From assembly GCF_003666605.1 (NCBI RefSeq), contig NZ_RCIV01000001.1, positions 310,001-374,000 on the forward strand: DNA of 64,000 bases, written 5' to 3'. This document shows, piece by piece, positions 15,165 through 26,441 of the stretch (positions within the stretch are counted from its first letter, which is position 1; each line of letters begins with the position of its first letter). The notes under the pieces are model-generated. The model did no database searches. It was given only the letters and a program-made list of their open reading frames with translations, and was not told the origin of the DNA. Made by a program: the position numbers and the translations under genes. The DNA comes from Propionibacterium australiense (GTDB lineage Bacteria > Actinomycetota > Actinomycetes > Propionibacteriales > Propionibacteriaceae).

Positions 15165-15959
15165 ATGACGACACTCACCACGACCAGCAGACGGCCCGGG
15201 CTGCGCACCTATACGCGCATCGACGCGCTGACCATCCTCAAGCGGGCCGATATGATCCTCTTCACCATCGTCCTGCCGCTGGGCATGTACCTGTTCTGGG
15301 GCGCCATGCAGGACTACTCCGACATCGACGTCGGACGCGGCAATGTGGCGGCCTCGACGATGGTCAACATGGCGGTCTTCTCCGTCGCGGTCGCGGCGAC
15401 CTGCACGGCGGCCGGCGCCGCGGTGGAACTGGCCGGCGGCTGGGGACGGCAGATGGCCCTCACCCCGGTCGGCACCCGCGGCTACGTCCTCGTCAAGCTG
15501 CTCGGCGCCGTCATCGTCTCGGCGGTGCCGGTCACCGTCATCTTCATCGCCGGACTGTTCACCGGCGCCGAGATGGACGCCGTCTGGGTGTGGGCCGCGA
15601 GTTTTCTGCTCGCACTGGCGCCGACGGCCCTGCTCTTCGGCTGCTACGGGCTGGCCGTGGGGCTGTGGTTCCCGGCCCAGGGAGCCGTCGGCCTCGCGGG
15701 GACCTCGATCGCGCTGTTCGGTTTCCTCGGCAATCTGTTCATGCCGCTCGACGGCACACTGTTCGCCCTGAGCCGCTTCACCCCCATCTACGGCGTGGGG
15801 GCCCTGGGCACCCGTCCCATCCTGGGCGACGACGTCATCATGATGAGCGACATCGCCACCGAGGCGCTGTGGGTTCCGCTCACTAACATGATCGCGTGGA
15901 CCCTGCTCTTCGCCCTCGTGTGCCTGGCGGCGCGCCGCCGGACGACCCGGCGCAGGTGA
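15165..15959 (+). CDS. ABC-2 type export permease
   Basis: A 264-residue membrane protein with six predicted transmembrane segments (for example ADMILFTIVLPLGMYLFWGA and FLGNLFMPLDGTLFALSRFT), the ABC-2 permease layout. The ATG at 15165 follows AAGGA. It begins 92 bases after its ATPase partner. Substrate unknown; linearmycin/bacitracin-type or lipid export are common for such sets. Confidence 0.85.
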   Translation: MTTLTTTSRRPGLRTYTRIDALTILKRADMILFTIVLPLGMYLFWGAMQDYSDIDVGRGNVAASTMVNMAVFSVAVAATCTAAGAAVELAGGWGRQMALTPVGTRGYVLVKLLGAVIVSAVPVTVIFIAGLFTGAEMDAVWVWAASFLLALAPTALLFGCYGLAVGLWFPAQGAVGLAGTSIALFGFLGNLFMPLDGTLFALSRFTPIYGVGALGTRPILGDDVIMMSDIATEALWVPLTNMIAWTLLFALVCLAARRRTTRRR

Positions 15960-15964
15960 GCACG

Positions 15965-17113
15965 ATGACCGACCGCGCGGCGAGCCCGGCCGGTGACCGG
16001 GCGGGATTCTGGCACCGGATCGACTGGATGGCGAGCATCTGGGTGATCTTCCTCCTCGTCCCGCTGACCTTGCTCGTCGGCTCCGCCGCGTCCTGGCCGG
16101 TCAAGGCGGGCGGGGTGGTGGGCATCTGTGGTTTCATCGTCGTCTATCTCGTCATGGTGAACTCCTCGTCCGAGGCCTTCGCGTGGAATCGGCTGCCGGA
16201 GGGCGCCTCGCCGGCCGAGCAGCTGCGGGTACCGCTGCGCGCCAGTGCCGTTCTGCTCGTCCCCGTGGCGCTGACCCTGCCGGGCCTGGGCTGGTGGGCG
16301 TTCTACTTCCTGCCCTTCTTCACCGCACTGCTGCTCTACACGACGCGGCTGGGCACGGGGCTGCTGGCCGTGGCCCTGCTGAACGCGGGTGCCGTGATCT
16401 GCGCAGTGCTGTTCATCCACGACGCCGAGACGAGGTGGAGCGGCGTACTGGGGCCGTGCTTCTCGGTGTTCCTCGTCGCTCTGTCGCGCATCGGCGTGGA
16501 TGCCGAGGAACGCCGCCAGGTCAAGGAGCGCGAGCTCGCCGCGGCGGCCGAGCGCGAGGAGATCAGCCGTGACGTCCACGACCTGCTGGGGCACTCCCTC
16601 ACCGTGCTCACCCTCAAGGCCGAGGTCGCCCAGCGTCTCGTGCGCCGCGACCCGGACGCCGCCGAGCACGAGCTCGGTGAGATCGTCGGGCTCGCCCGTA
16701 CGGCCCTGGCGGACGTGCGGGCCACCGTCACCCGGCTGCGCGTACCGGATCTCGCCGGCCAGCTGGAGGCCTCTCGCACGGCCTTCGCCGCCGGCGGGCT
16801 CGAGGCCGCGTTCTCGGGACGGGCCGAAGCCGTGCCCGCCCCTCAGCGGGAGCTGCTCGCCTGGGCCCTGCGCGAGGCGACGACGAACGTCCTGCGCCAC
16901 GCCGGGGCGCGCAGCGTGCGCGTCGAACTCGCCCCGGGCCTGGTGCGGGTCACCGACGACGGCGCCGGAACCACCGGCTGCGAGCTGGGCAACGGGCTGC
17001 GGGGACTGTCCGAACGGATCCGGGCCGCCGGGGGCACGCTCACACTCACCAGCCCGGCCCCCGAGAGTTGCGCAGGCCCCGGCCCGGGAACCCTCCTGGA
17101 GGTGAGGCTGTGA
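15965..17113 (+). CDS. NarL/DesK-type sensor histidine kinase
   Basis: A 382-residue sensor with an N-terminal membrane domain of about six segments (to residue about 170) and no large extracellular domain, so it probably senses within the membrane. The HisKA_3 phosphoacceptor is in EEISRDVHDLLGHSLTVLTL (His in RDVHD). The ATPase domain has an N box in ALREATTNVLRHAGA and a G box in VTDDGAGT and GNGLRGLSERI. The ATG at 15965 is preceded by GGTGAG; GTG at 15956, overlapping the permease stop, is an alternative start. It is coupled to the regulator by a four-base overlap. Confidence 0.9.
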   Translation: MTDRAASPAGDRAGFWHRIDWMASIWVIFLLVPLTLLVGSAASWPVKAGGVVGICGFIVVYLVMVNSSSEAFAWNRLPEGASPAEQLRVPLRASAVLLVPVALTLPGLGWWAFYFLPFFTALLLYTTRLGTGLLAVALLNAGAVICAVLFIHDAETRWSGVLGPCFSVFLVALSRIGVDAEERRQVKERELAAAAEREEISRDVHDLLGHSLTVLTLKAEVAQRLVRRDPDAAEHELGEIVGLARTALADVRATVTRLRVPDLAGQLEASRTAFAAGGLEAAFSGRAEAVPAPQRELLAWALREATTNVLRHAGARSVRVELAPGLVRVTDDGAGTTGCELGNGLRGLSERIRAAGGTLTLTSPAPESCAGPGPGTLLEVRL

Positions 17114-17727
17114 ACCCCTCCCCCATCAGGGTGCTCATCGCAGACGACCAGGGGCTCGTCCGCGGGGCGCTCGCCACGCTGCTCGGGCTCGAACCCGACA
17201 TCGAGGTGGTCGCCCAGGTCGGCACCGGAAGCGCGGCCCTCGACGCGGTGCGCGCCCACGCGATCGACGTGGCCCTGCTCGACATCGACATGCCGGACAT
17301 GGACGGGCTGGCCGCCGTGGCGACGATCACCGAGCTGTACCCGAGCTGCCGCAGTCTCATCGTCACGACCTTCGGCCGTCCCGGCTATCTCTCGCGGGCC
17401 CTCGAGGCCGGCGCGAGCGGCTTCCTCGTCAAGGACACCCCGCCGTCCGAGCTCGCCGAGGCGATCCGCAGGATCGCCCGTGGGCTGCGCGTCATCGACC
17501 CGACGCTGGCCCAGGAGTCGGTACTGCTGGGGCCGAACCCGCTGACCGAGCGCGAGAAGGACGTCCTGCGGCTGGCCGCCGAGGGGGCGGACGCGCAGGG
17601 CATCGCCCGGGAACTGGCGCTCGGCGAGGGCACGGTGCGCAACTACCTGTCGGGCGCCATCGCCAAGACGCATGCCCGCAACCGCACCGAGGCGGCCCGG
17701 ACCGCGGAGCGGAACGGCTGGCTGTAG
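17110..17727 (+). CDS. NarL/LuxR-type response regulator
   Basis: A 205-residue regulator. The receiver domain (IRVLIADDQGLVRGALATLL) has the acidic pair DD, the phosphoacceptor Asp in ALLDIDMPDMDGL and the switch Lys in GFLVKDTPPSELAEAI. The LuxR helix-turn-helix is LTEREKDVLRLAAEGADAQ followed by GEGTVRNYLSGAIAKTHARN. The GTG at 17110 overlaps the kinase stop and follows GGAGGTGAGGCT. Its most likely target is the exporter promoter, including the inverted repeat at 14066-14094. Confidence 0.92.
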   Translation: MNPSPIRVLIADDQGLVRGALATLLGLEPDIEVVAQVGTGSAALDAVRAHAIDVALLDIDMPDMDGLAAVATITELYPSCRSLIVTTFGRPGYLSRALEAGASGFLVKDTPPSELAEAIRRIARGLRVIDPTLAQESVLLGPNPLTEREKDVLRLAAEGADAQGIARELALGEGTVRNYLSGAIAKTHARNRTEAARTAERNGWL

Positions 17728-17753: not shown

Positions 17754-18704
17754 TCATCCGTCGGCCGGCAGCCAGGGCAGGCCCGGGCTCGGCCGGGCGG
17801 CCTCGTCGGTGACCGTCAGGTACTCGACGCCGTCGAGCAGCCCGGCCAGCCGTCCAGCCGACCGCATCATGAGGGCCGTCGCCGCGACCTCGGCCCGCAT
17901 GCCGTCGGCGCACACCGCGGTGGCCTGACGCACACCGGCATCGGACGGCCGGCCGGTGGCCGGGTCGACGACGTGGTGCACGAGCTGCCCGTCGACCAGG
18001 CCCGGCAGCTGCTGCAGCTGGTCCCCCGAGGTGGCCAGGTCGGCGCCGTCCGCCAGTTCGACGGAGCCGAGGATGGCCTCGCCGGTCGGGGTGTTGACGC
18101 CGACCCGCCAGGGGCGCCCGTCCGGCCTGGTGCCGGCCGCGGCGATCGACGAGGCTCCGACCGAGACGAGGGCGGCCTCGACCCCCCGGTCGAGGCAGAG
18201 CCCGCGGACGGCGTCGGCGACGAATCCCTTCGCGATGGCCCCCAGGTCGAGCCGCGCCCCGCCGTGCAGGCGGTAGGCGCGTTCATCCACCTTCTCGAGC
18301 AGCCCGGGCGCGCAGCGCCGCCGCGCCGCGTCGAGCACGTCCTGGCCCGGCGGCTGCACGGGCCGCCCGGCGGCGAGCCCGGCCAGCCAGCCCTTGACGT
18401 TCCACAGCTCGCTGAGCGCGCCGATGCACGGTGTGAAGGCCCCGTCGCTGAGTCCGGCGAGCGTCAGGGCGGCGTCGAGCACGACGGACGTCGCCTCGGC
18501 CACCTCGACGACGCCGCCTGCGGCGCGGTTGAGCGCGGACACGTCCGAGTCCGGCTGGAAGCGCGACAGCAGCGACTCGTGGTGGACGAGCAGCCCGGCG
18601 GTCTCCTCCACGAGCCCGTCCAGCCGGGGCGTCACCACGATGACCTCGACGATGGTCGCCATCGAGGGCAGGACGAAGCGCTGCGCCCCGGCCGTCGCCC
18701 TCAT
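17754..18704 (-). CDS. apbE: FAD:protein FMN transferase (ApbE)
   Basis: A 316-residue ApbE that attaches FMN through a phosphoester to Thr/Ser of extracytoplasmic flavoproteins. Characteristic blocks are LLSRFQPDSDVSALNRAAGG, LDLGAIAKGFVADAVRGL, the VSVGASSIAAAGTRPDGRPW segment, HHVVDPATGRP and the late MRAEVAATALMM with its metal-binding region. No obvious signal peptide is seen at this ATG, which has no strong Shine-Dalgarno, so the start is uncertain. It is the last gene of the iron operon and follows an FMN-binding lipoprotein carrying the ApbE target motif, its likely substrate. Confidence 0.9.
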   Translation of the reverse strand: MRATAGAQRFVLPSMATIVEVIVVTPRLDGLVEETAGLLVHHESLLSRFQPDSDVSALNRAAGGVVEVAEATSVVLDAALTLAGLSDGAFTPCIGALSELWNVKGWLAGLAAGRPVQPPGQDVLDAARRRCAPGLLEKVDERAYRLHGGARLDLGAIAKGFVADAVRGLCLDRGVEAALVSVGASSIAAAGTRPDGRPWRVGVNTPTGEAILGSVELADGADLATSGDQLQQLPGLVDGQLVHHVVDPATGRPSDAGVRQATAVCADGMRAEVAATALMMRSAGRLAGLLDGVEYLTVTDEAARPSPGLPWLPADG

Positions 18705-18750
18705 GCGCGCGGCCGCCCCGGGGACGGTGCGGCGCTGCGGGGACTGCTGA

Positions 18751-19287
18751 TCAGTAATCCTCGTCCTCCAGCCCCAGGCCGGGCATGTTGATCGTGTCGG
18801 CCCGGCCGTCGTCCTCGACGCCCTGCGCCTGGTAGACGGCGCGCAGCGCGGCCTGCAGGAACTGGCTGTGCGCCACGGTGGCGCCCGAGATCGTGTCGAC
18901 CGCGGTCGGGTCCTGGGCCTCGACGAGGGCGGCCGAGTACTGCTCGTAGGAGGCGACGGCGGCCTGGGCGCGCTGGTAGTACTCGGCGTTGGCGATCTCC
19001 CCCGAGCTGTCCTTGCCGTAGTTCTCGTCCTTGACGGTGCCGTCGGACTCGACCGTCTCGTAGGAGGCCTCGATGATCCGGCCGCCCTCGACGGTGATGG
19101 TGACGGTGCCCACCGAGCCCTGGTCGTCCTCGTTGGACTGGCCGGTGTAGGTGCCGTCGCTCATCGGGATGCCCATGTCGACGAGCTCGTCGTCGCCGGA
19201 GCAGGCGGTGAGCATCATGGCGCCGACCGCGCCGAGCCCGGCGAAGGCGGCGAACCGACGGGTGAGACCGCGGTGCGTGGTGTTCAT
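18751..19287 (-). CDS. FMN-binding-domain lipoprotein, probable ApbE substrate
   Basis: A 178-residue exported protein. The lipobox is MMLTACSG, with the lipidated Cys at about residue 29. The FMN_bind domain contains YTGQSNEDDQGSVGTVTITV, and the flavinylation motif DTISGATVAHSQF has the acceptor Thr in SGAT. It should be anchored outside the membrane with a covalent FMN added by the neighbouring ApbE. Its ATG overlaps the ATPase stop by four bases. The context suggests it moves electrons in ferric reduction or ferrous oxidation next to FTR1/P19; this is inference. Confidence 0.88.
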   Translation of the reverse strand: MNTTHRGLTRRFAAFAGLGAVGAMMLTACSGDDELVDMGIPMSDGTYTGQSNEDDQGSVGTVTITVEGGRIIEASYETVESDGTVKDENYGKDSSGEIANAEYYQRAQAAVASYEQYSAALVEAQDPTAVDTISGATVAHSQFLQAALRAVYQAQGVEDDGRADTINMPGLGLEDEDY

Positions 19288-20039
19288 GCCTGTTCCCCCT
19301 GGTCCTCGCCGCCGGTCATGACCACGTCCGGCTGGGCGGACTGCCCGGCGCCGGGCTCGTCGTGGTCGTGTCTGGTCGTCTCGACGATCCTGCCGTGGTC
19401 CAGCCGGACCTCGCGCTGGCCCTTCGAGGCGACCCAGGCGTCGTGGGTGACGACGATGAGCGTGGTGCCCTCGGCGTGCAGTTGACCGAAGATGTCGAGC
19501 ACGATGCGTTCGTTCTTCTCGTCCAGGTTGCCGGTGGGTTCGTCGGCCAGGACGATCTTCGGCGAGTTGATGAGGGCGCGGGCGACGCAGACCCGCTGCT
19601 GCTCGCCGCCGGACAGCTGGCTCGGCAGGTGAGTGGCCCGCTCGGCCAGTCCCACCCGGGCGAGGGCTGCGAGGGCCTCGGTCTCGTCGGGCATCGAGTG
19701 GTAGTACTGCGCGACCATGACGTTCTCGAGGGCCGTCAGGTGCGGGATGAGGTGGAACTGCTGGAAGATCAGGCCGATCGTCTCACGACGTACCTGGGTG
19801 AGGTCGAAGCCGGAGAACTTGGAGATGTCCCGGCCGTCGAGCATGACGGTGCCCTCGGTGGGCCGGTCCATGCACCCGATGATGTTCATCATCGTCGTCT
19901 TGCCCGAGCCGGACGGGCCGACGATCGAGACCCACTCGCCGCGCTGGACGGTGAGGTCGACGTGATCGAGGGCGTGCAGGTCACCGTAGATCTTCGAGAC
20001 GTCGGTGAGCTGCAGCAGATCGGACGTGGTGTTTGTCAT
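19284..20039 (-). CDS. LolD/MacB-type ABC ATPase of the iron operon
   Basis: A 251-residue ATPase of the MacB/FtsE class. Walker [20 protein letters not shown] loop [18 protein letters not shown], signature [15 protein letters not shown], Walker [13 protein letters not shown] and H loop [11 protein letters not shown] are all intact. About 30 acidic/polar residues extend the C-terminus. It is coupled to the two FtsX-type permeases upstream and to the FMN lipoprotein downstream. Such transporters usually act on the outer face of the membrane as mechanotransmitters. It corresponds to the ATPase in the Campylobacter p19/FTR1 locus. Confidence 0.9.
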
Positions 20040-20047
20040 GATGGTTC

Positions 20048-21289
20048 CTATTCTCCGCGCAGCACGAGGGCGGGGTCGACGTCGACGGCTCGGCGCACCG
20101 GGATGAGGCTCGCCAGCGTCGACACGAGGACGGCCGCCACGACGGTGCCGACGAGGATGAGCAGGTGCGCCTCGACGGTGCGGTGGAAGACGTTGAGGGA
20201 GATCACCTGGGCCAGGCCGAATCCTGCCGCCGCGCCGATGAGGCCGCCGATCAGGCCGAGGACGACGCCCTCGCCGAGGAACTCCCCGATGATCGATCCG
20301 TCATCGGCGCCGAGGGCCTTGCGCAGGCCGATCTCGTTGCGGCGCTCGGTGACGACGGCCATCATCGTCGTTGAGACGCCGATCATGATGAGGGCGAGGA
20401 CGATGACCGAGATGATCACCATGAGCGAGCGCAGCATGCCGAGGACGTCGGAGTCGGACTGGGCGAGGCGGGCGACCGGGGCGGCACTCACCTCGGGATG
20501 GCGGGCGCTGATCCGGTCGGCCAGCGTCTGCAGGGCGTCGCCCTCGCCCGAGATCGAGAACTCGGCGACGGTGAAGACCGGGGGCTCGCCGGTCAGCTCG
20601 GTCAGCTCGTCCATGGCCAGGTAGACGAAACCGTCCTCGTTGCCACCGGTCTCCAGGACGCCCGAGACCGTCACCGTGGTCTCGGCGCTCGTCGTGGCCC
20701 CGGCCCGGCTCACGTCCTGGTTCGAGATCTCCTTGCCGTTCTCGTTTGTCGCCGCCGCGGCCGGGGTCGAGGCGTCGCCCTCACCGTCGCCGGAGTCGTC
20801 CTCGGCGAGCATCGACAGGGTGATCGTGTCACCGGCCTGCGCGTCGACGGCCTCGGCGATGTCCCGGCCGATGAGCACCTGGCCGGCGCCGGAGGGCCAT
20901 GCGCCGTCCACGTACCAGTACGGGTTCAGCCGGCGGGCGGCATCGAGGTCGGCGCCGGCCGCCACGTACGGCAGGTCGTTGACGAGGACCGCCTCGTAGT
21001 CGATGCCGACCGCTCCGACGAGCTCGTCGGAGCCGATCTCGCCGGTGATCTCCTCGACGACCGAGACGTCGAAGCTGTTCGCGTCACCGGCCGGCGTCAG
21101 CAGCATGTTGGCGCCGGCGGAGCGCATCTCGCGGGCCATCTGGCGCGGCACGTCGACCGAGATCGTGGCCAGGGCCGACAGCGTGGTGGCGCCCACCGCG
21201 ACGGCCAGCATCGCGACGACGACGCGGGAGTGCCGCCGCAGGATCGACGACATCACCATGCGGATGAACAGTCTGCGCTTGGGGTTCAT
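20048..21289 (-). CDS. FtsX/MacB-type ABC permease 2 of the iron operon
   Basis: A 413-residue permease. One N-terminal transmembrane segment (VVVAMLAVAVGATTLSALAT) precedes an extracytoplasmic domain of about 240 residues, and three C-terminal segments contain the FtsX motif ERRNEIGLRKALGADDGSII. The ATG at 21289 follows GGGAGGTGAG; a longer reading overlaps the previous gene and is rejected. It is paralogous to the gene at 21294, the pair forming a heterodimer with the ATPase. Confidence 0.88.
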   Translation of the reverse strand: MNPKRRLFIRMVMSSILRRHSRVVVAMLAVAVGATTLSALATISVDVPRQMAREMRSAGANMLLTPAGDANSFDVSVVEEITGEIGSDELVGAVGIDYEAVLVNDLPYVAAGADLDAARRLNPYWYVDGAWPSGAGQVLIGRDIAEAVDAQAGDTITLSMLAEDDSGDGEGDASTPAAAATNENGKEISNQDVSRAGATTSAETTVTVSGVLETGGNEDGFVYLAMDELTELTGEPPVFTVAEFSISGEGDALQTLADRISARHPEVSAAPVARLAQSDSDVLGMLRSLMVIISVIVLALIMIGVSTTMMAVVTERRNEIGLRKALGADDGSIIGEFLGEGVVLGLIGGLIGAAAGFGLAQVISLNVFHRTVEAHLLILVGTVVAAVLVSTLASLIPVRRAVDVDPALVLRGE

Positions 21290-21293
21290 CGGC

Positions 21294-22583
21294 TCACCTC
21301 CCGTGCAGCACTTCGGCCGGGCGCAGTCGCAGCAGGAATCTGATTGCGGGGATGGAGCCGGCCAGGACGACGAGCAGGACCAGGGCCGCGACGATCCCGG
21401 CGACCGAGGGCAGGATCGACATGGCGGAGCCGAACACGAGATGCCCGATGAGCTGGGCCAGGCCGATGCCGGCACCGAACCCGAGCAGGCCCCCCACCAG
21501 GCCGATGATGAGGATCTCGGTGAGGATCAGCCCGACCACCGCCGCATCGCGGGCGCCGATGGCTTTCATCAGGCCGATCTGGGCGGCGCGCTCCATGACG
21601 TTGGCGGTGACGAGATTGGCGATGGCGAGCGCGGCACCGGCCATCGACAGGATCGTGACGAGCACCATGAGCAGCTGCGTCTTCTCGAGGATGGTGCCCT
21701 CGGACTCGGAGACCTGGCGCACCGCGCGGGCCGTCGAGTCGGGGATGACCTCCTCGATCTGGTAGGCGATCGAGGAGACGTAGGCGGTGCAGTACCAGGT
21801 CTCGCGCTCGGCGACCGAGAGGCTGGCCGGGTTCTTCGCCGCCTTCCTGGCCAGGTCGTTGTCCGGCGTGGTGAGGGCCGAGACCTCGACCTCGCCGACC
21901 GCGCCGGGGGTGGCGATGAGTTCCTGGGCTGCGCCGATGTTGGTGAGGACCTGGTTGTCCTCCTCGGCGCCCGTGGTGACGATGCCCGACACCGTCATCT
22001 GCTCGGCGACGCCGCCCCTGGTGAGCGTGACGGAGTCGCCGATCCCCAGGCCGTTGTCCTGGGCGAAGGTGACGCCCACGACGACCTGGTCATCGGCGTC
22101 CTGGGCCGGCCATGAGCCGTCGATCGTCCACCAGCCGCGCATGTTCACCAGGCCGGTGTCGACCGATTCGCCATCGGCCAGGTCGAGGTGCCGGGTGAAC
22201 CAGGTGCCGACGACGGTCACGCCCTCGGCAGTCCCGCTCGTGGTCGCCGCATCGGCGCTCGTGGTGAGCAGGGGCGCGAAGTCGACGATGTTGTAGGTCC
22301 AGAAGATCGTCTTGATCTTCGGCAGGTCCGCCTCGTCGAGGTAGGACTGCTGGGTGTCACCGCCGCCGACGTCGTAGATGTCCTGGACGACCGCGGCGTT
22401 CTGGGGGCGGACGACGATGTTGGCGCCGTAGGCCTTCAGCTCCTGGTTGATCTTGTCGCCCACGGAGAACATGACCGAGAGCATCGAGGTGGCGACCGAG
22501 GCACCGAGGGCCACGGTCGCGATGATCATGAGACGCCGGGAACGCTGCCGGAGCAGCGCGCCGCGGAGCATGCGAAGGAACAT
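21294..22583 (-). CDS. FtsX/MacB-type ABC permease 1 of the iron operon
   Basis: A 429-residue permease with the FtsX layout: one N-terminal transmembrane segment (LMIIATVALGASVATSMLSV), a large extracytoplasmic domain, then three segments with ERAAQIGLMKAIGARDAAVV. The ATG at 22583 is preceded by GAGGTGG; a GTG three codons upstream is less likely. Four bases separate it from the next permease. Its extracytoplasmic domain could contact P19 or the DUF2318 protein; this is inference from co-location. Confidence 0.88.
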   Translation of the reverse strand: MFLRMLRGALLRQRSRRLMIIATVALGASVATSMLSVMFSVGDKINQELKAYGANIVVRPQNAAVVQDIYDVGGGDTQQSYLDEADLPKIKTIFWTYNIVDFAPLLTTSADAATTSGTAEGVTVVGTWFTRHLDLADGESVDTGLVNMRGWWTIDGSWPAQDADDQVVVGVTFAQDNGLGIGDSVTLTRGGVAEQMTVSGIVTTGAEEDNQVLTNIGAAQELIATPGAVGEVEVSALTTPDNDLARKAAKNPASLSVAERETWYCTAYVSSIAYQIEEVIPDSTARAVRQVSESEGTILEKTQLLMVLVTILSMAGAALAIANLVTANVMERAAQIGLMKAIGARDAAVVGLILTEILIIGLVGGLLGFGAGIGLAQLIGHLVFGSAMSILPSVAGIVAALVLLVVLAGSIPAIRFLLRLRPAEVLHGR

Positions 22584-22603
22584 GGTGACCACCTCGTTCG
22601 GGT

Positions 22604-23926
22604 TCAGGCGAAGACGCCGGCGCTGGACTCCAGGACCTGGATCGGCACGCTCAGCTCACCGTTGGCGATCGTGTAGTCGATCGGGATCGGGTTGCACCCG
22701 CCCTTGAAGCCGATGGTGGCGATGTTCATGGCGACACCGCAGAGCTTGCAGATGACCTGGCCGTCCTCCTCGTAGTAGCCGCTGGGGCCGCAGATCTCGC
22801 AGGCGTCCAGGCCGACGCCGAACGAGGTGCCGGCCTTCTGGATCGCGATGAACCGCACCCTGGTTCCCGAGGAGGTCTGGTACTCGAAACGGTGCAGGTG
22901 CGCGTCGCTGATCGCATCGAGCCCGACGACGACATTGTCGTCCCTGACGTCGAAGGGCTCCGGGTCCGACAGCTCGACCTCCTGCGTGGCGTAGTGCTCG
23001 CCGACGGTGAGGACGCCGGCGGCCACGGCCAGGGTGCCGAGGCTGAGGACCGAGCGGCGGGTCATCGAACGGACGCCGGCCTTCTTCAGCCGCCGCTCGG
23101 GTGCCACATCGGACTCGGTGGGCGTGCGACGGGCCGAGACCAGCAGGATCACGGCGGCGACGGCCGTGGCGGCCATCGCCGCGAAGGAGAACAGGTCGCC
23201 GTGATTGGCCAGCCAGGACATCGTCGTGGCGGTCTGCTTCGAGACGCGGATGACGCGCAGGGAGTACAGCAGCCGGACGATGAGGAAGACGTGTGTCGCG
23301 GTGAGGATGAGACCGGAGACGGTGAACAGCGCCGGGGCGTGGGACGGCCGCCGCGCGCACATGAGCGAGACGCTCGCCCCGGCGACGACCGCGATGGCGA
23401 CGCCGGCCAGGAAACCCAGCACGTTGAGGAAGGTGGTGCTGGAGAACAGCGTCGAATTGGAGGGCACCCACTCCCAGATCTGCAGGTAGACGCTCTGGCC
23501 GGCGCGGAAGACGATGGCCAGGGCCCAGACGGAGCCGGCCGTCGAGACGACGGCCCGCCACGGCCTGGGGATCGGGTTGGCGACGCCGGCGCCGGCCAAG
23601 GAGTCGCCCCGGGCCCCGCGGAGGAGCCCAAGGGTCCGCCGGCCGAGGAACCAGACGAGGGCGAGCAGGACGACGAAGAGCCCGACGGTGGGTTCGAGCG
23701 TGGTGAGGGTGAGGCGCTGCCGGTCGAAGCGGATGATCGAGAACTGGTGGACGACGATGAACGCCAGCCCGAGCGCCGCGCCGGCCAGCGCGCCCCAGGC
23801 CACCGGGCGGGGGCCCGGGCGAGCCGGGTCCCCGCCACAGGCCAGGCGCACGCTGGGAGCCAGCGCCCCGATCGTCAGGGCGACGAGGATGAGCGAACCG
23901 AGTGCGTCAACGAGCTGTGCGAGCAC
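22604..23926 (-). CDS. Membrane protein with C-terminal DUF2318 (CxxC/CxxC) metal or Fe-S domain
   Basis: A 440-residue protein. About eight transmembrane segments fill residues 1-280, a further one (RRSVLSLGTLAVAAGVLTVG) follows, and the C-terminal DUF2318 domain shows CEICGPSGYYEEDGQVICKL, CGVAMNIATIGFKGGCNPIP and HRFEYQTSSGTRVRFIAI. The two CxxC pairs plus a fifth Cys suggest an Fe-S cluster or metal centre facing outward. DUF2318 proteins occur in p19/FTR1 iron loci (for example Campylobacter), where an electron-transfer role is assumed. GTG start at 23926 after GGAGAG. Confidence 0.85.
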   Translation of the reverse strand: MLAQLVDALGSLILVALTIGALAPSVRLACGGDPARPGPRPVAWGALAGAALGLAFIVVHQFSIIRFDRQRLTLTTLEPTVGLFVVLLALVWFLGRRTLGLLRGARGDSLAGAGVANPIPRPWRAVVSTAGSVWALAIVFRAGQSVYLQIWEWVPSNSTLFSSTTFLNVLGFLAGVAIAVVAGASVSLMCARRPSHAPALFTVSGLILTATHVFLIVRLLYSLRVIRVSKQTATTMSWLANHGDLFSFAAMAATAVAAVILLVSARRTPTESDVAPERRLKKAGVRSMTRRSVLSLGTLAVAAGVLTVGEHYATQEVELSDPEPFDVRDDNVVVGLDAISDAHLHRFEYQTSSGTRVRFIAIQKAGTSFGVGLDACEICGPSGYYEEDGQVICKLCGVAMNIATIGFKGGCNPIPIDYTIANGELSVPIQVLESSAGVFA

Positions 23927-24011
23927 TGTCTCTCCTGTACGGCTGAGGACTGTTTCACCAGTGCGTCATCACGAGCACCGGCCGGGCCGGCTGGCTGGTG
24001 GCCGCGGCCCG

Positions 24012-24647
24012 TCACCACCACACGGCCTCGGGATCCCAGTGCCAGTCCGGGAAGCTCGCGACGATCGGCTCGGTCCAGAAGCGACCCTCGACCCCGGTCT
24101 CCTTGTCGGTGTGCAGCATCCAGCCGTTCTCCTCCGGGGAGTGGACGATGATCTCGAGCGTGTAGTCGCCGGCGGCCAGCTCGGGCAGGTTGAGGCCGTA
24201 GTGGGGGCCGTCCGAGGCGTTCATCGCCATGAAGGTGCCGCTCTGCACCTCGTTGCCGGAGGCGTCCTTGATGGCGTACTCGACGGTCAGGCCGGGGACG
24301 AAGTCGCCGGCGCCGTAGCCGAGCTTGTTGTCCTCGACGGCCGTGATGTCGGCCTCGAGGTGCATGGCGGCCTGGGAGGCGTCGACGCCCATCTTCGGGG
24401 TCATCTCGACGGGCTGGAAGTAGACGGCCGCGATCTTGAGGGGGCCGGAGAAGACCTCGTCGCCGACGGGTTCTTCCTGGAAACCGGCGTCACCGCCGTC
24501 GTCGGCGGTCTCGGCGGCAGTGGCGGTGCTGCTGCTGTCCGCCGAGCTGGAGCCCGAGGAGCTCGAGCCGCCGGAGCAGCCGGCCATCAGACCGGCCAGC
24601 GCCAGCACGGCGATGAGGCTTCCAAGCTTCTTGACTGACATGGACAT
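24012..24647 (-). CDS. P19-type iron-transport lipoprotein
   Basis: A 211-residue lipoprotein with lipobox LAGLMAGCSG and a Ser-rich linker, then a P19 domain. Metal-site residues seem conserved: the Met in VEMTPKMGVD, AAMHLEADITAV, the His in GPHYGLNLP and the C-terminal FPDWHWDPEAVWW. P19 binds Cu/Mn/Fe at the outer face and supports ferrous/ferric delivery to the FTR1 permease. The ATG at 24647 follows GGAGACATTTC. It lies 31 bases after the permease gene. Confidence 0.9.
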   Translation of the reverse strand: MSMSVKKLGSLIAVLALAGLMAGCSGGSSSSGSSSADSSSTATAAETADDGGDAGFQEEPVGDEVFSGPLKIAAVYFQPVEMTPKMGVDASQAAMHLEADITAVEDNKLGYGAGDFVPGLTVEYAIKDASGNEVQSGTFMAMNASDGPHYGLNLPELAAGDYTLEIIVHSPEENGWMLHTDKETGVEGRFWTEPIVASFPDWHWDPEAVWW

Positions 24648-24678
24648 GAAATGTCTCCTGTGATGAGAGGATTCGGTG

Positions 24679-26313
24679 TTATTCAGTTGTCCGGTTCGCC
24701 GCCGTCTGCCCGCCCCGGCCACTGGCCACGAGGCCACGACGACGCTGGCGCCGGGAGCCGATGACGTAGAGAGCAACGATGATGATGAGAACCACGGCCT
24801 GACCGGCCAGGTTCTCAACCCTCGGGTAGAGCCCCAACAGGTCGATCGTGGGCAGCCCGCCGATCGCCGTCGACGGCAGGACGTCGGCCTCCTGCAGTTC
24901 CTTGATGCCCGACCCGGTGAAGACGATCGCCATGACGGCCAGGAAGATCGAGGTGACGATGAAGAAGGGGCGTAGCGGGATACGCAGGCTGAAGAAGCGG
25001 ATCGCCACGTAGACGAGGACGAGGCAGACCACGCCGACAACCAGGCCGAGCCACACGAGGTGGGTATCGTCACCGGCCATGGCGAGGATCGGCTGGTAGA
25101 ACAGGATCGTCTCGGCGCCCTCGCGCAGCACGGCGACGAAGGTCACCAGGACGAGCGAGAACAGCGAGGCGCGGCTGATGCCGTGCTCGGTCGATCCCGG
25201 CAGGTACTTCTGCCAGGAGGAGTGGTCGGAGTTCTGGATCATCCAGTTCGACACCCAGATGAGCATGGCCACGGCGACCAGCGCCGTGACGCCCTCGAGC
25301 AGTTCCTGGTTGGAGCCGGCCGCGGCGGTCACGAAGTGGAACAGGAGCGCCAGGGCGGCCGAGAGGAGCACGGCCAGGGCCACGCCGGCCCAGATGAGAC
25401 GCGACTCGCGCCTGAGGCCGGCCTTGATCATGAAGGCCATCACGGCTGCGACGACGAGGATGGCCTCGAGGCCCTCCCGCAGGATGACGAGGAAGGCCGA
25501 GAGGAACAGGGTGAGGCCGCCCCCGCCGCTCGTCGCTCCGGTGCTCGGGTCGTAGCCGTCAAGCGTATTGGCGTCCTGGATGAGCATGACCTCGAGCTGG
25601 GCGACACGGGCCGCGACCGAGTCGTTGTCCTGACTGGTCATGTCCCGTTTGATGTTGGCGAACTCCAGTTCGATGGTGGACACGCGCGCACCGGAGACCC
25701 TGCTCATCGTGACCTTCTCGAAACCGGTCGTCTCGTAGTTCCCGTAATAGGCCTCGTTGACGAGTTCCTTGCCGCGTTCGGGATCGCCTGCCGCCGAGGC
25801 GTCCCGGCCCTGGTTGAGCAGGTCGATCATGGTCGAGGCGACCTGACCCCACTTGCCGGGGCTGATCGCCATGTCCTCGGCGCTCTGGGAGCCGCCGTCG
25901 AGGCTCTGGGCGGCGCTCGTCACGAGTTTCTTGAGCTCGTCGGTCCGGCTGTCGACCTCGGCGCCGTCGTTGTCCTTGATCGCCTGAATGAGCAGCGCGA
26001 AGTCCATGTCGGCGTCCTTGACGTCGGCGCCCGACTTGGCCCCGAGGGCCTCCTCGAAGCCCGAGCCGACGTAGGTCTTGTAACGGGTGTCCCTGACCCG
26101 GTTCTTGGCGCCGTCCCGGTCACCGTCGTGGAAGGTGGCTGCCGCCGCATCGAGTTCGTCACTGATCTTCTGGGCCACACCGGTCCACTGCCCCGCGGAG
26201 GCCGAGGGCTCGGCGGCGGCCGTCGCCGAACGACCGATCGGCAGCAGCACCAGGAGAAGCAGCAGCGCGCCGACGACGGTCAGGCGCCGCAGACGGGCCT
26301 GCCCGTCCACCAT
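24679..26313 (-). CDS. FTR1-family high-affinity iron permease with duplicated extracytoplasmic N-terminal domain
   Basis: A 544-residue iron permease. A signal-like segment (LTVVGALLLLLVLLPIGR) is followed by an extracytoplasmic region (about 38-255) and seven transmembrane segments. Both FTR1 motifs are present: REGLE at 279-283 and REGAE at 397-401. The extracytoplasmic region is an internal duplication: GQWTGVAQKISDELDAA to about 145 matches GKWGQVASTMIDLLNQG to about 255, including GSGFEEAL/TTGFEKVT. The ATG at 26313 gives the best signal peptide but has a weak Shine-Dalgarno; GTG 26337 or ATG 26352 are possible. It heads the operon directly downstream of the tandem DtxR boxes. Confidence 0.88.
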   Translation of the reverse strand: MVDGQARLRRLTVVGALLLLLVLLPIGRSATAAAEPSASAGQWTGVAQKISDELDAAAATFHDGDRDGAKNRVRDTRYKTYVGSGFEEALGAKSGADVKDADMDFALLIQAIKDNDGAEVDSRTDELKKLVTSAAQSLDGGSQSAEDMAISPGKWGQVASTMIDLLNQGRDASAAGDPERGKELVNEAYYGNYETTGFEKVTMSRVSGARVSTIELEFANIKRDMTSQDNDSVAARVAQLEVMLIQDANTLDGYDPSTGATSGGGGLTLFLSAFLVILREGLEAILVVAAVMAFMIKAGLRRESRLIWAGVALAVLLSAALALLFHFVTAAAGSNQELLEGVTALVAVAMLIWVSNWMIQNSDHSSWQKYLPGSTEHGISRASLFSLVLVTFVAVLREGAETILFYQPILAMAGDDTHLVWLGLVVGVVCLVLVYVAIRFFSLRIPLRPFFIVTSIFLAVMAIVFTGSGIKELQEADVLPSTAIGGLPTIDLLGLYPRVENLAGQAVVLIIIVALYVIGSRRQRRRGLVASGRGGQTAANRTTE

Positions 26314-26403
26314 CGCTGTCAGCTGTGCGGAATGCACTGGCGGACACCCCATTCCCCGAGAAGGACTCGACCGTTCACAGATTCTCGACAGAACCCACAA
26401 ACG

Positions 26404-26441
26404 ACTAGCTTAGGCTAACAGTTGATTAGCTTAGGCTAACA
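26404..26441 (-). promoter_or_regulatory. Two tandem DtxR/IdeR iron boxes over the iron-operon promoter
   Basis: TTAGGCTAAC, the core of the DtxR/IdeR consensus (TTAGGTTAGGCTAACCTAA), occurs at 26410-26419 and 26431-26440, each extended on the left as TAGC. The two centres are 21 bases apart, two helical turns, as in promoters bound by paired DtxR dimers. The boxes overlap the expected promoter of the FTR1 operon (TTGTTA on the minus strand at about 26443-26438 is a candidate -35). Iron-loaded repressor should shut the operon off. Confidence 0.85.

Follow-up and report, generated by a model that had tools for sequence, protein, structure and literature searches.

The 64,000-nucleotide stretch of Propionibacterium australiense DNA analyzed here (contig NZ_RCIV01000001.1, positions 310,001 to 374,000; hereafter the window, with coordinates counted from its first base) carries an operon of eight genes, all on the minus strand (17754-26400, FTR1 first and ApbE last). 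Its most probable function, to which a probability of roughly 60% can be assigned, is that of an iron importer of the P19/FTR1 (fetMP-fetABCDEF) type, controlled by iron starvation and equipped with a flavin redox arm. A redox-assisted iron importer is considered likeliest because of the gene parts, the upstream box and the published mutants of two relatives. The pairing of a flavin mononucleotide (FMN) protein with P19/FTR1 has already been published, in 2018 and 2021. The least expected features are predicted ones: the apparent absence of an export signal from ApbE and, in a membrane protein, an outer domain that would fold like a Rieske electron carrier.

Pfam families were identified for seven of the eight genes. 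Calculated from the gene coordinates, neighbouring genes overlap by up to 4 bases or lie up to 85 bases apart. The first gene (24679..26400; PF03239, E = 6e-49) encodes an FTR1 iron permease that has an extracytoplasmic region at its N-terminus and, as read by eye, two REG-E motifs. It is followed by genes encoding (i) the iron-binding lipoprotein P19 (24012..24647; PF10634, E = 8.9e-51), which matches solved structures (P19, FetP and FtrA chains) and has residues H95, E97, M139, M141, H148 and H178 invariant in 12 aligned sequences, (ii) an FtrD-like membrane protein of family DUF2318 with eight predicted membrane helices (22604..23926; PF10080, E = 1.4e-30), (iii) two FtsX-type permeases (21294..22592; PF02687, E = 4.3e-14 and PF12704, E = 1.6e-10; 20048..21289; PF02687, E = 1.3e-18), (iv) an ATP-binding cassette (ABC) ATPase of the MacB/LolD type (19284..20039; PF00005 (ABC_tran), E = 2.7e-36), for which the top NCBIfam models, MacB, LolD and FtsE, all score beneath their own cut-offs, (v) an FMN-type lipoprotein (18751..19287) and (vi) an ApbE flavin transferase (17754..18704; PF02424, E = 2.3e-54). 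Sequence-family models and motifs together bear out the gene content given in the original prediction, with two corrections: ApbE lacks a signal peptide, and it is uncertain at which codon FTR1 starts.

Two DtxR-like boxes (26405-26418 and 26426-26439, strand not assigned) lie upstream of FTR1. A scan of both strands of the window, allowing up to two mismatches, gave four matches compared with 0.24 expected, a number reached in none of 100 shuffles. With at most one mismatch, the whole genome yielded five match rows at four places, but the reversed pattern gave two rows, which makes the genome-wide count weak. As judged by eye, two additional genomic sites precede an enterobactin-type-esterase-like gene and an iron-complex-binding-like lipoprotein gene, and the genome contains one DtxR-family gene. 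The site was then scored with a DtxR consensus in relatives from the same family (Propionibacteriaceae; 18 retrieved via P19). It was detected 5′ of FTR1 in 16 of the 18 members counted (single-base-shuffle p ≤ 0.025; L045 lies outside this count, locus identifiers here and below being given as L numbers); no DtxR-like site was found at this threshold upstream of FTR1 in L028 and L029, or in six Bifidobacteriaceae loci (L086, L097, L099, L111, L122 and L125). The two boxes had been proposed earlier, and their excess over shuffled sequence in the window, together with their recurrence before FTR1 in the family, upholds that proposal. The likeliest reading of these predicted boxes is that the operon would be under iron-starvation control.

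Within the order Propionibacteriales, P19 was detected at E ≤ 1e-10 in 19 of 293 genomes, every one of them in the family of the window; at the same threshold the window's genome was the only one among 394 genomes of the class, and at E ≤ 0.001 P19 was present in 18 of 396 genomes of the phylum, the majority of these matches being weak. A second, broader set of named loci comprised the best 80 of 551 candidates (78 distinct after removal of L048 and L078, duplicates of L044 and L042, respectively); L046, which retains P19 alone of the eight genes (E = 1.6e-22), and L047 (ATPase only) were left out. The core order FTR1-P19-DUF2318-FtsX-FtsX-ATPase, tested by script for the first five genes and read from gene listings for the ATPase, is kept wherever the six genes are all present, in 16 of 16 family loci and 61 of 61 named loci. 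Conservation in the named loci is partly circular, because the search patterns included the DUF2318 cysteines. Of 63 named loci, 52 have a seventh gene that the FMN profile detected; among the 11 that it missed, seven, from Actinomyces and Bifidobacteriaceae, carry a GAS-motif gene at this position. It had also been proposed that the FMN protein and ApbE belong to operons of this kind. This was found in the family, where the FMN gene is present in 16/16 relatives whose loci leave room for one, ApbE being present in 15/15; outside the family a same-strand ApbE is located downstream in just 13 of 59 named loci, and an ApbE occurs somewhere in the genome in 45 of 50 cases.

This scarcity of linked ApbEs is one of several observations that weigh against a flavin-assisted iron importer. 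No ApbE was found in the other five of the 50 genomes (some of which are incomplete metagenome bins), and no FMN-type seventh gene was recognised in four of the 63 loci (L118, L120, L121 and L123). The operon is also patchy: in the genus of the window, P19 is missing at E ≤ 1e-10 from two of four genomes. The seventh gene of the window misses the Pfam FMN_bind cut-off (19.3 bits versus 22, E = 0.0018). Finally, the Campylobacter jejuni FetE protein resembles thiol oxidases (PMC10783030), which fits poorly with simple iron reduction. The operon represents an already described and conserved kind of actinobacterial iron-uptake system.

In several loci of Firmicutes and Coriobacteriales (L063, L069, L091, L100, L112 and L115), another FtsX-like gene and ATPase gene are found downstream of the FMN gene. 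In two Actinomyces loci (L071:4744-5802 and L072:4947-5921) and in Pseudoscardovia (L097:4563-5597), an ApbE-like gene is situated not at the end of the operon but immediately upstream of FTR1, in the opposite orientation. In the window, a gene pair encoding a histidine kinase and a LuxR-type response regulator (15896-17727, plus strand; identified with Pfam) converges on the 3′ end of the operon.

In the full FtrD model (pLDDT, the predicted local distance difference test score, 87), eight membrane helices are followed by DUF2318, a C-terminal domain (22607..22984) predicted to have a Rieske fold. Modelled alone with 66 sequences, this domain reached a pLDDT of 96 and a predicted template modelling (pTM) score of 0.89. 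The best match in structural comparison was BphA3 (94 residues, 3.1 Å), with a Z-score of 8.4; models that have no clear match typically reach a best of 7 to 8 with this tool, a range barely exceeded here. Since this value alone is marginal, the assignment rests on the finding that all 50 matches listed are Rieske-fold chains (judged by title, and counting the small subunits of nitrite reductase and arsenite oxidase, which have this fold), with a coverage of 90 to 100 residues. A Rieske oxygenase was also the best Foldseek match (E = 0.035, probability 0.99, TM-score 0.51), none being obtained at E ≤ 0.001. The Rieske ligand motifs CxH and CxxH are not present in the domain, which has four cysteines (C376, C379, C393 and C396; CxxC-x13-CxxC) that are invariant in all 19 sequences retrieved through P19. 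Profile alignment to 30 Rieske sequences (chosen by motif pattern, one per locus) was not significant (E = 0.046, probability 0.6 percent); in it, C376 and C393 coincide with the Rieske cysteines and C396 with the second histidine, C379 being placed one residue past the first histidine.

A competing explanation, whose chances are only somewhat below even, is that DUF2318 holds structural zinc or performs disulfide exchange; FtrD would then be a scaffold and the FMN protein would receive its electrons from elsewhere. A zinc-ribbon model weakly matched 35 of the 66 DUF2318 domains, and PF00355 was not among the families matched by the 66 at E ≤ 0.1. In addition, the structural matches include NirD proteins, which have a Rieske fold without a cluster. 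Disulfide chemistry has been suggested for the C. jejuni system (PMC10783030). Against a zinc or disulfide role stand the predicted Rieske fold, the register of the cysteines with cluster ligands in the non-significant alignment, and the Pfam label "FtrD-like iron-sulfur protein", which is a name only. The cysteine motif has been noted before and likened to iron-sulfur domains (Liu 2018, PMC6083913), and DUF2318 is also found fused to DsbD-like and metal-binding domains (PMC4938975); the word "Rieske" was not found in the main text of the papers naming DUF2318 that were searched. The genome of the window (G000) yielded no PF00355 Rieske protein, which was present in 16 of 19 genomes searched.

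The original prediction placed a redox centre of FtrD in the membrane. Since the membrane part has no conserved histidine pair (best histidine column 61/95), DUF2318 is better described as a domain that lies outside the cytoplasm and is held there by a membrane anchor. On the same observation, a transmembrane haem protein is not supported as an identity of FtrD. Foldseek gave no match of the membrane part to known folds at E ≤ 0.001, and transporter-like matches (Z up to 9.6) were discarded as lying within the range of the comparison tool for unrelated helical bundles.

Helix 8 of FtrD begins with a motif of the [ST]RRx type (TRRSVL; 23045..23062) resembling that of the twin-arginine translocation (Tat) pathway. 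In the family, this motif is present in 13/13 TatC-bearing genomes versus 1/6 without TatC (Fisher p = 5e-4), and with a stricter pattern in 12/13 versus 1/6 (p = 0.003). Over 69 genomes it was found in 17 of 26 with TatC (the other nine being without the motif) compared with 3 of 43 lacking TatC. The patterns were picked after the sequences had been read, the initial one having given 24/99, and a tree-aware analysis was not significant (about 3.7 of 9 independent pairs in the same direction and 0.1 in the opposite one; median p = 0.125). The co-occurrence of the Tat-like motif with TatC is a lead only.

The seventh gene encodes a protein with a lipobox cysteine and a flavinylation motif (DTISGAT) whose predicted acceptor is Thr137 (codon 18877-18879). 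It matches the model of the Listeria flavoprotein PplA with E = 1.2e-11 (44 bits; the model's own cut-off is 325). Among 18 aligned FMN lipoproteins the acceptor motif is GAT in ten and GAS, with a serine acceptor, in eight (L030, L033, L034, L037, L038, L039, L041 and L043); the seventh genes of Actinomyces and Bifidobacteriaceae also have GAS. This is the one credible FMN_bind protein of the genome, a second match (E = 0.5) having been set aside as it sits in a permease-like frame.

In the redox-assisted importer proposed here, P19 would bind iron outside the membrane and hand it to FTR1, which would move it across in a redox-dependent step, as may be expected from the relatives. ApbE would attach FMN to Thr137 of the lipoprotein, in the cytosol and before export, and the flavoprotein would link DUF2318 of FtrD and the iron at P19/FTR1 as an electron shuttle. 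The FtsX-FtsX-ATPase unit would probably drive a conformational change or partner exchange, the least certain of these steps. The conserved gene order, the DtxR-like boxes, the single ApbE and single credible FMN_bind protein of the genome, the PplA-like substrate and the predicted fold of DUF2318, which is that of a family of electron carriers, all speak for this scheme. An extracytoplasmic redox arm, as put forward in the original prediction, is supported by mutants of Bifidobacterium breve, in which bfeUO, sifABCDE (sifE being the FMN gene) and apbE are needed under chelation: sifE and apbE Tn5 mutants were both impaired by ferrous chelation (dipyridyl and phenanthroline) and grew normally on the ferric chelator ciclopirox (Lanigan 2017, PMC5449479). 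This ferrous-only pattern is not unique to them, because mntH and oppC mutants behaved similarly. The apbE phenotype was explained in that study as iron-sulfur repair; since it is shared with sifE, we infer that flavinylation of SifE fits at least as well. In C. jejuni, fetA, fetB, fetC, fetD and the redundant fetE/fetF pair are needed under low iron (PMC10783030).

It is possible, though rather doubtful, that electrons flow in the reverse direction, so that Fe(II) on P19 would be oxidised as it passes to FTR1, with the electron being taken away by the FMN lipoprotein and the FtrD domain. The yeast Ftr1 permease, an analogue of such a scheme, works with an oxidase partner; however, ApbE-flavinylated proteins studied to date mostly deliver electrons outward. 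The sensitivity of B. breve sif mutants to ferrous chelators only (PMC5449479) and, besides the likeness of FetE to thiol oxidases, the promotion of oxidation in extracts by C. jejuni FetEF (PMC10783030) agree with reverse flow, whereas reduction is favoured by Liu 2018 (PMC6083913) and Meheust 2021 (PMC8238504), according to whom FMN proteins replace thioredoxins and may reduce iron.

The ApbE of the window, the only one in its 3.0-Mb genome, starts 14 residues ahead of its domain. A hydrophobicity/lipobox heuristic combined with reading detected no signal peptide in any of 30 operon-linked ApbEs (the window, 16 relatives and 13 named loci); the single hydrophobic value above 2 (L040) comes from a segment within the domain, and start codons are unsure where frames extend far upstream. 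By comparison, a lipobox or a hydrophobic segment at the N-terminus was seen in 20 of 25 unlinked ApbEs from named genomes (the best-scoring matches, not all) and was absent from the other five. The contrast between linked and unlinked ApbEs is confounded with phylum, the linked set being nearly all actinobacterial. The few unlinked or divergent actinobacterial ApbEs observed (L071, L072, L152 and L153) lack a signal too, and the missing signal may therefore track lineage rather than the operon; linkage alone was rejected as its cause on the same grounds. The linked ApbE of L066 (Clostridium) is likewise without a signal. That of L033 (L033:9123-9800) is without the stretch holding a histidine conserved in nearly all others and may be degenerate or misassembled.

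Since the sole ApbE of the genome has no export signal, the lipoprotein is probably flavinylated in the cytosol prior to export. ApbEs mostly act outside the cell, although cytosolic ones serving a cytosolic fumarate reductase are known (PMC12052999); a search that mostly stopped short of subscription literature found no report of an exported lipoprotein being served by an ApbE without a signal. Tat export of the lipoprotein was rejected as a general answer, as a twin arginine was read to be absent in about 12 of the 18 aligned proteins, whose signals are mainly of the plain Sec type (general secretory pathway); it is still possible for the window, where TRRF lies within the signal, and its nearest relatives. 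That ApbE instead acts outside via an unrecognised route, or that the linked enzyme is a flavin adenine dinucleotide (FAD) hydrolase and not a transferase, is unlikely. The usual external action of ApbEs and the Sec-type signals of the lipoproteins would agree with this, as would the replacement of a metal-site Asp by Glu in 29 of the 30 linked ApbEs (the exception is L059), which could alter activity. In several relatives, however, the ApbE gene begins before the FMN gene has ended, leaving no room for a signal peptide. Glu is also found in the unlinked ApbEs of L142 and L152, most others having Asp; this Asp is the residue that differs between PDB entries 4xdt and 4xdr, and metal-site residue names were not found in the text of PMC4767422.

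To our knowledge, permeases of the FtsX/MacB type are not known as importers. It is therefore very unlikely that the FtsX-FtsX-ATPase unit itself imports iron or an iron chelate next to a separate FTR1/P19 system, as proposed for sifABCDE and bfeUO by Lanigan 2017 from B. breve, where the halves form separate transcripts with different chelator profiles (PMC5449479), given also the shared core order of the family and named loci and the like behavior of C. jejuni single mutants of either half (PMC10783030).

A more specific proposal, which must be regarded as tentative and rather improbable as a whole, is that DUF2318 may be a natural all-cysteine redox centre of the Rieske fold (rubredoxin-like iron or a four-cysteine 2Fe-2S cluster) at the outer membrane face, folded before export in some Tat-bearing actinobacteria, that would exchange electrons with an FMN lipoprotein flavinylated inside by a signal-less ApbE. 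If true, the usual order of secretion followed by flavinylation would be reversed. The P19/FTR1 importer spans several bacterial phyla, and from the predicted DUF2318 fold its central protein gains a concrete candidate identity that can be tested. An ApbE without a signal makes one ask on which side of the membrane a secreted flavoprotein is produced; with one ApbE and one credible substrate, this genome would allow a clean test. These added details are computed leads, which make the P19/FTR1 system more testable.

Comparison with known systems places these features as follows. A PplA-like flavinylation motif in a lipoprotein is shared with the PplA/FmnB extracellular electron transfer system of Listeria, where flavinylation is extracytosolic (PMC9973259), in contrast to the window with its signal-less ApbE. 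Actinobacterial Rieske proteins with dual Sec/Tat insertion (Tooke 2017, PMC5449189) have a polytopic part, a twin-arginine motif before the last helix and a Rieske-fold domain after it; FtrD resembles them in its polytopic part, its Tat-like motif at the start of helix 8 and the predicted Rieske fold of the domain that follows. FtrD differs in its CxxC-x13-CxxC motif in place of CxH/CxxH, its eight helices, the lack of a PF00355 match and a Tat route that is putative; it would have seven helices before the motif, whereas that study first searched proteins with an even number. P19 clusters with FTR1 and an FMN-binding gene have been described chiefly in Gram-positive bacteria, with a suggested role in iron redox chemistry: the FMN protein was reported as the seventh gene in four phyla (Liu 2018, PMC6083913), and 260 P19 clusters with an FMN-binding gene were counted (Meheust 2021, PMC8238504). 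ApbE at position eight, its missing signal and the DUF2318 fold were not found in the accessible text of these two accounts, nor was an earlier description of the signal-less linked ApbE, the DUF2318 Rieske fold or the Tat-like motif found in the literature searched. The B. breve bfeUO-sifABCDE locus has the same seven gene kinds and chelator-sensitive mutants (PMC5449479); it differs in forming two transcripts and in having an unlinked apbE (Bbr_1825), and the Bifidobacterium FMN genes examined have GAS where the window has GAT. The likeness of the first six genes to the Campylobacter p19/FTR1 locus, noted in the original prediction, is confirmed: the iron-regulated C. jejuni fetMP-fetABCDEF genes (CJJ81176_1649-1656) begin with six genes that agree with those of the window in kind and order (PMC6083913, PMC10783030). 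C. jejuni FetA carries an additional YHS domain, unlike the window, a Fur box takes the place of the DtxR-like box, and positions seven and eight are occupied by two thioredoxin-like genes instead of those for the FMN lipoprotein and ApbE.

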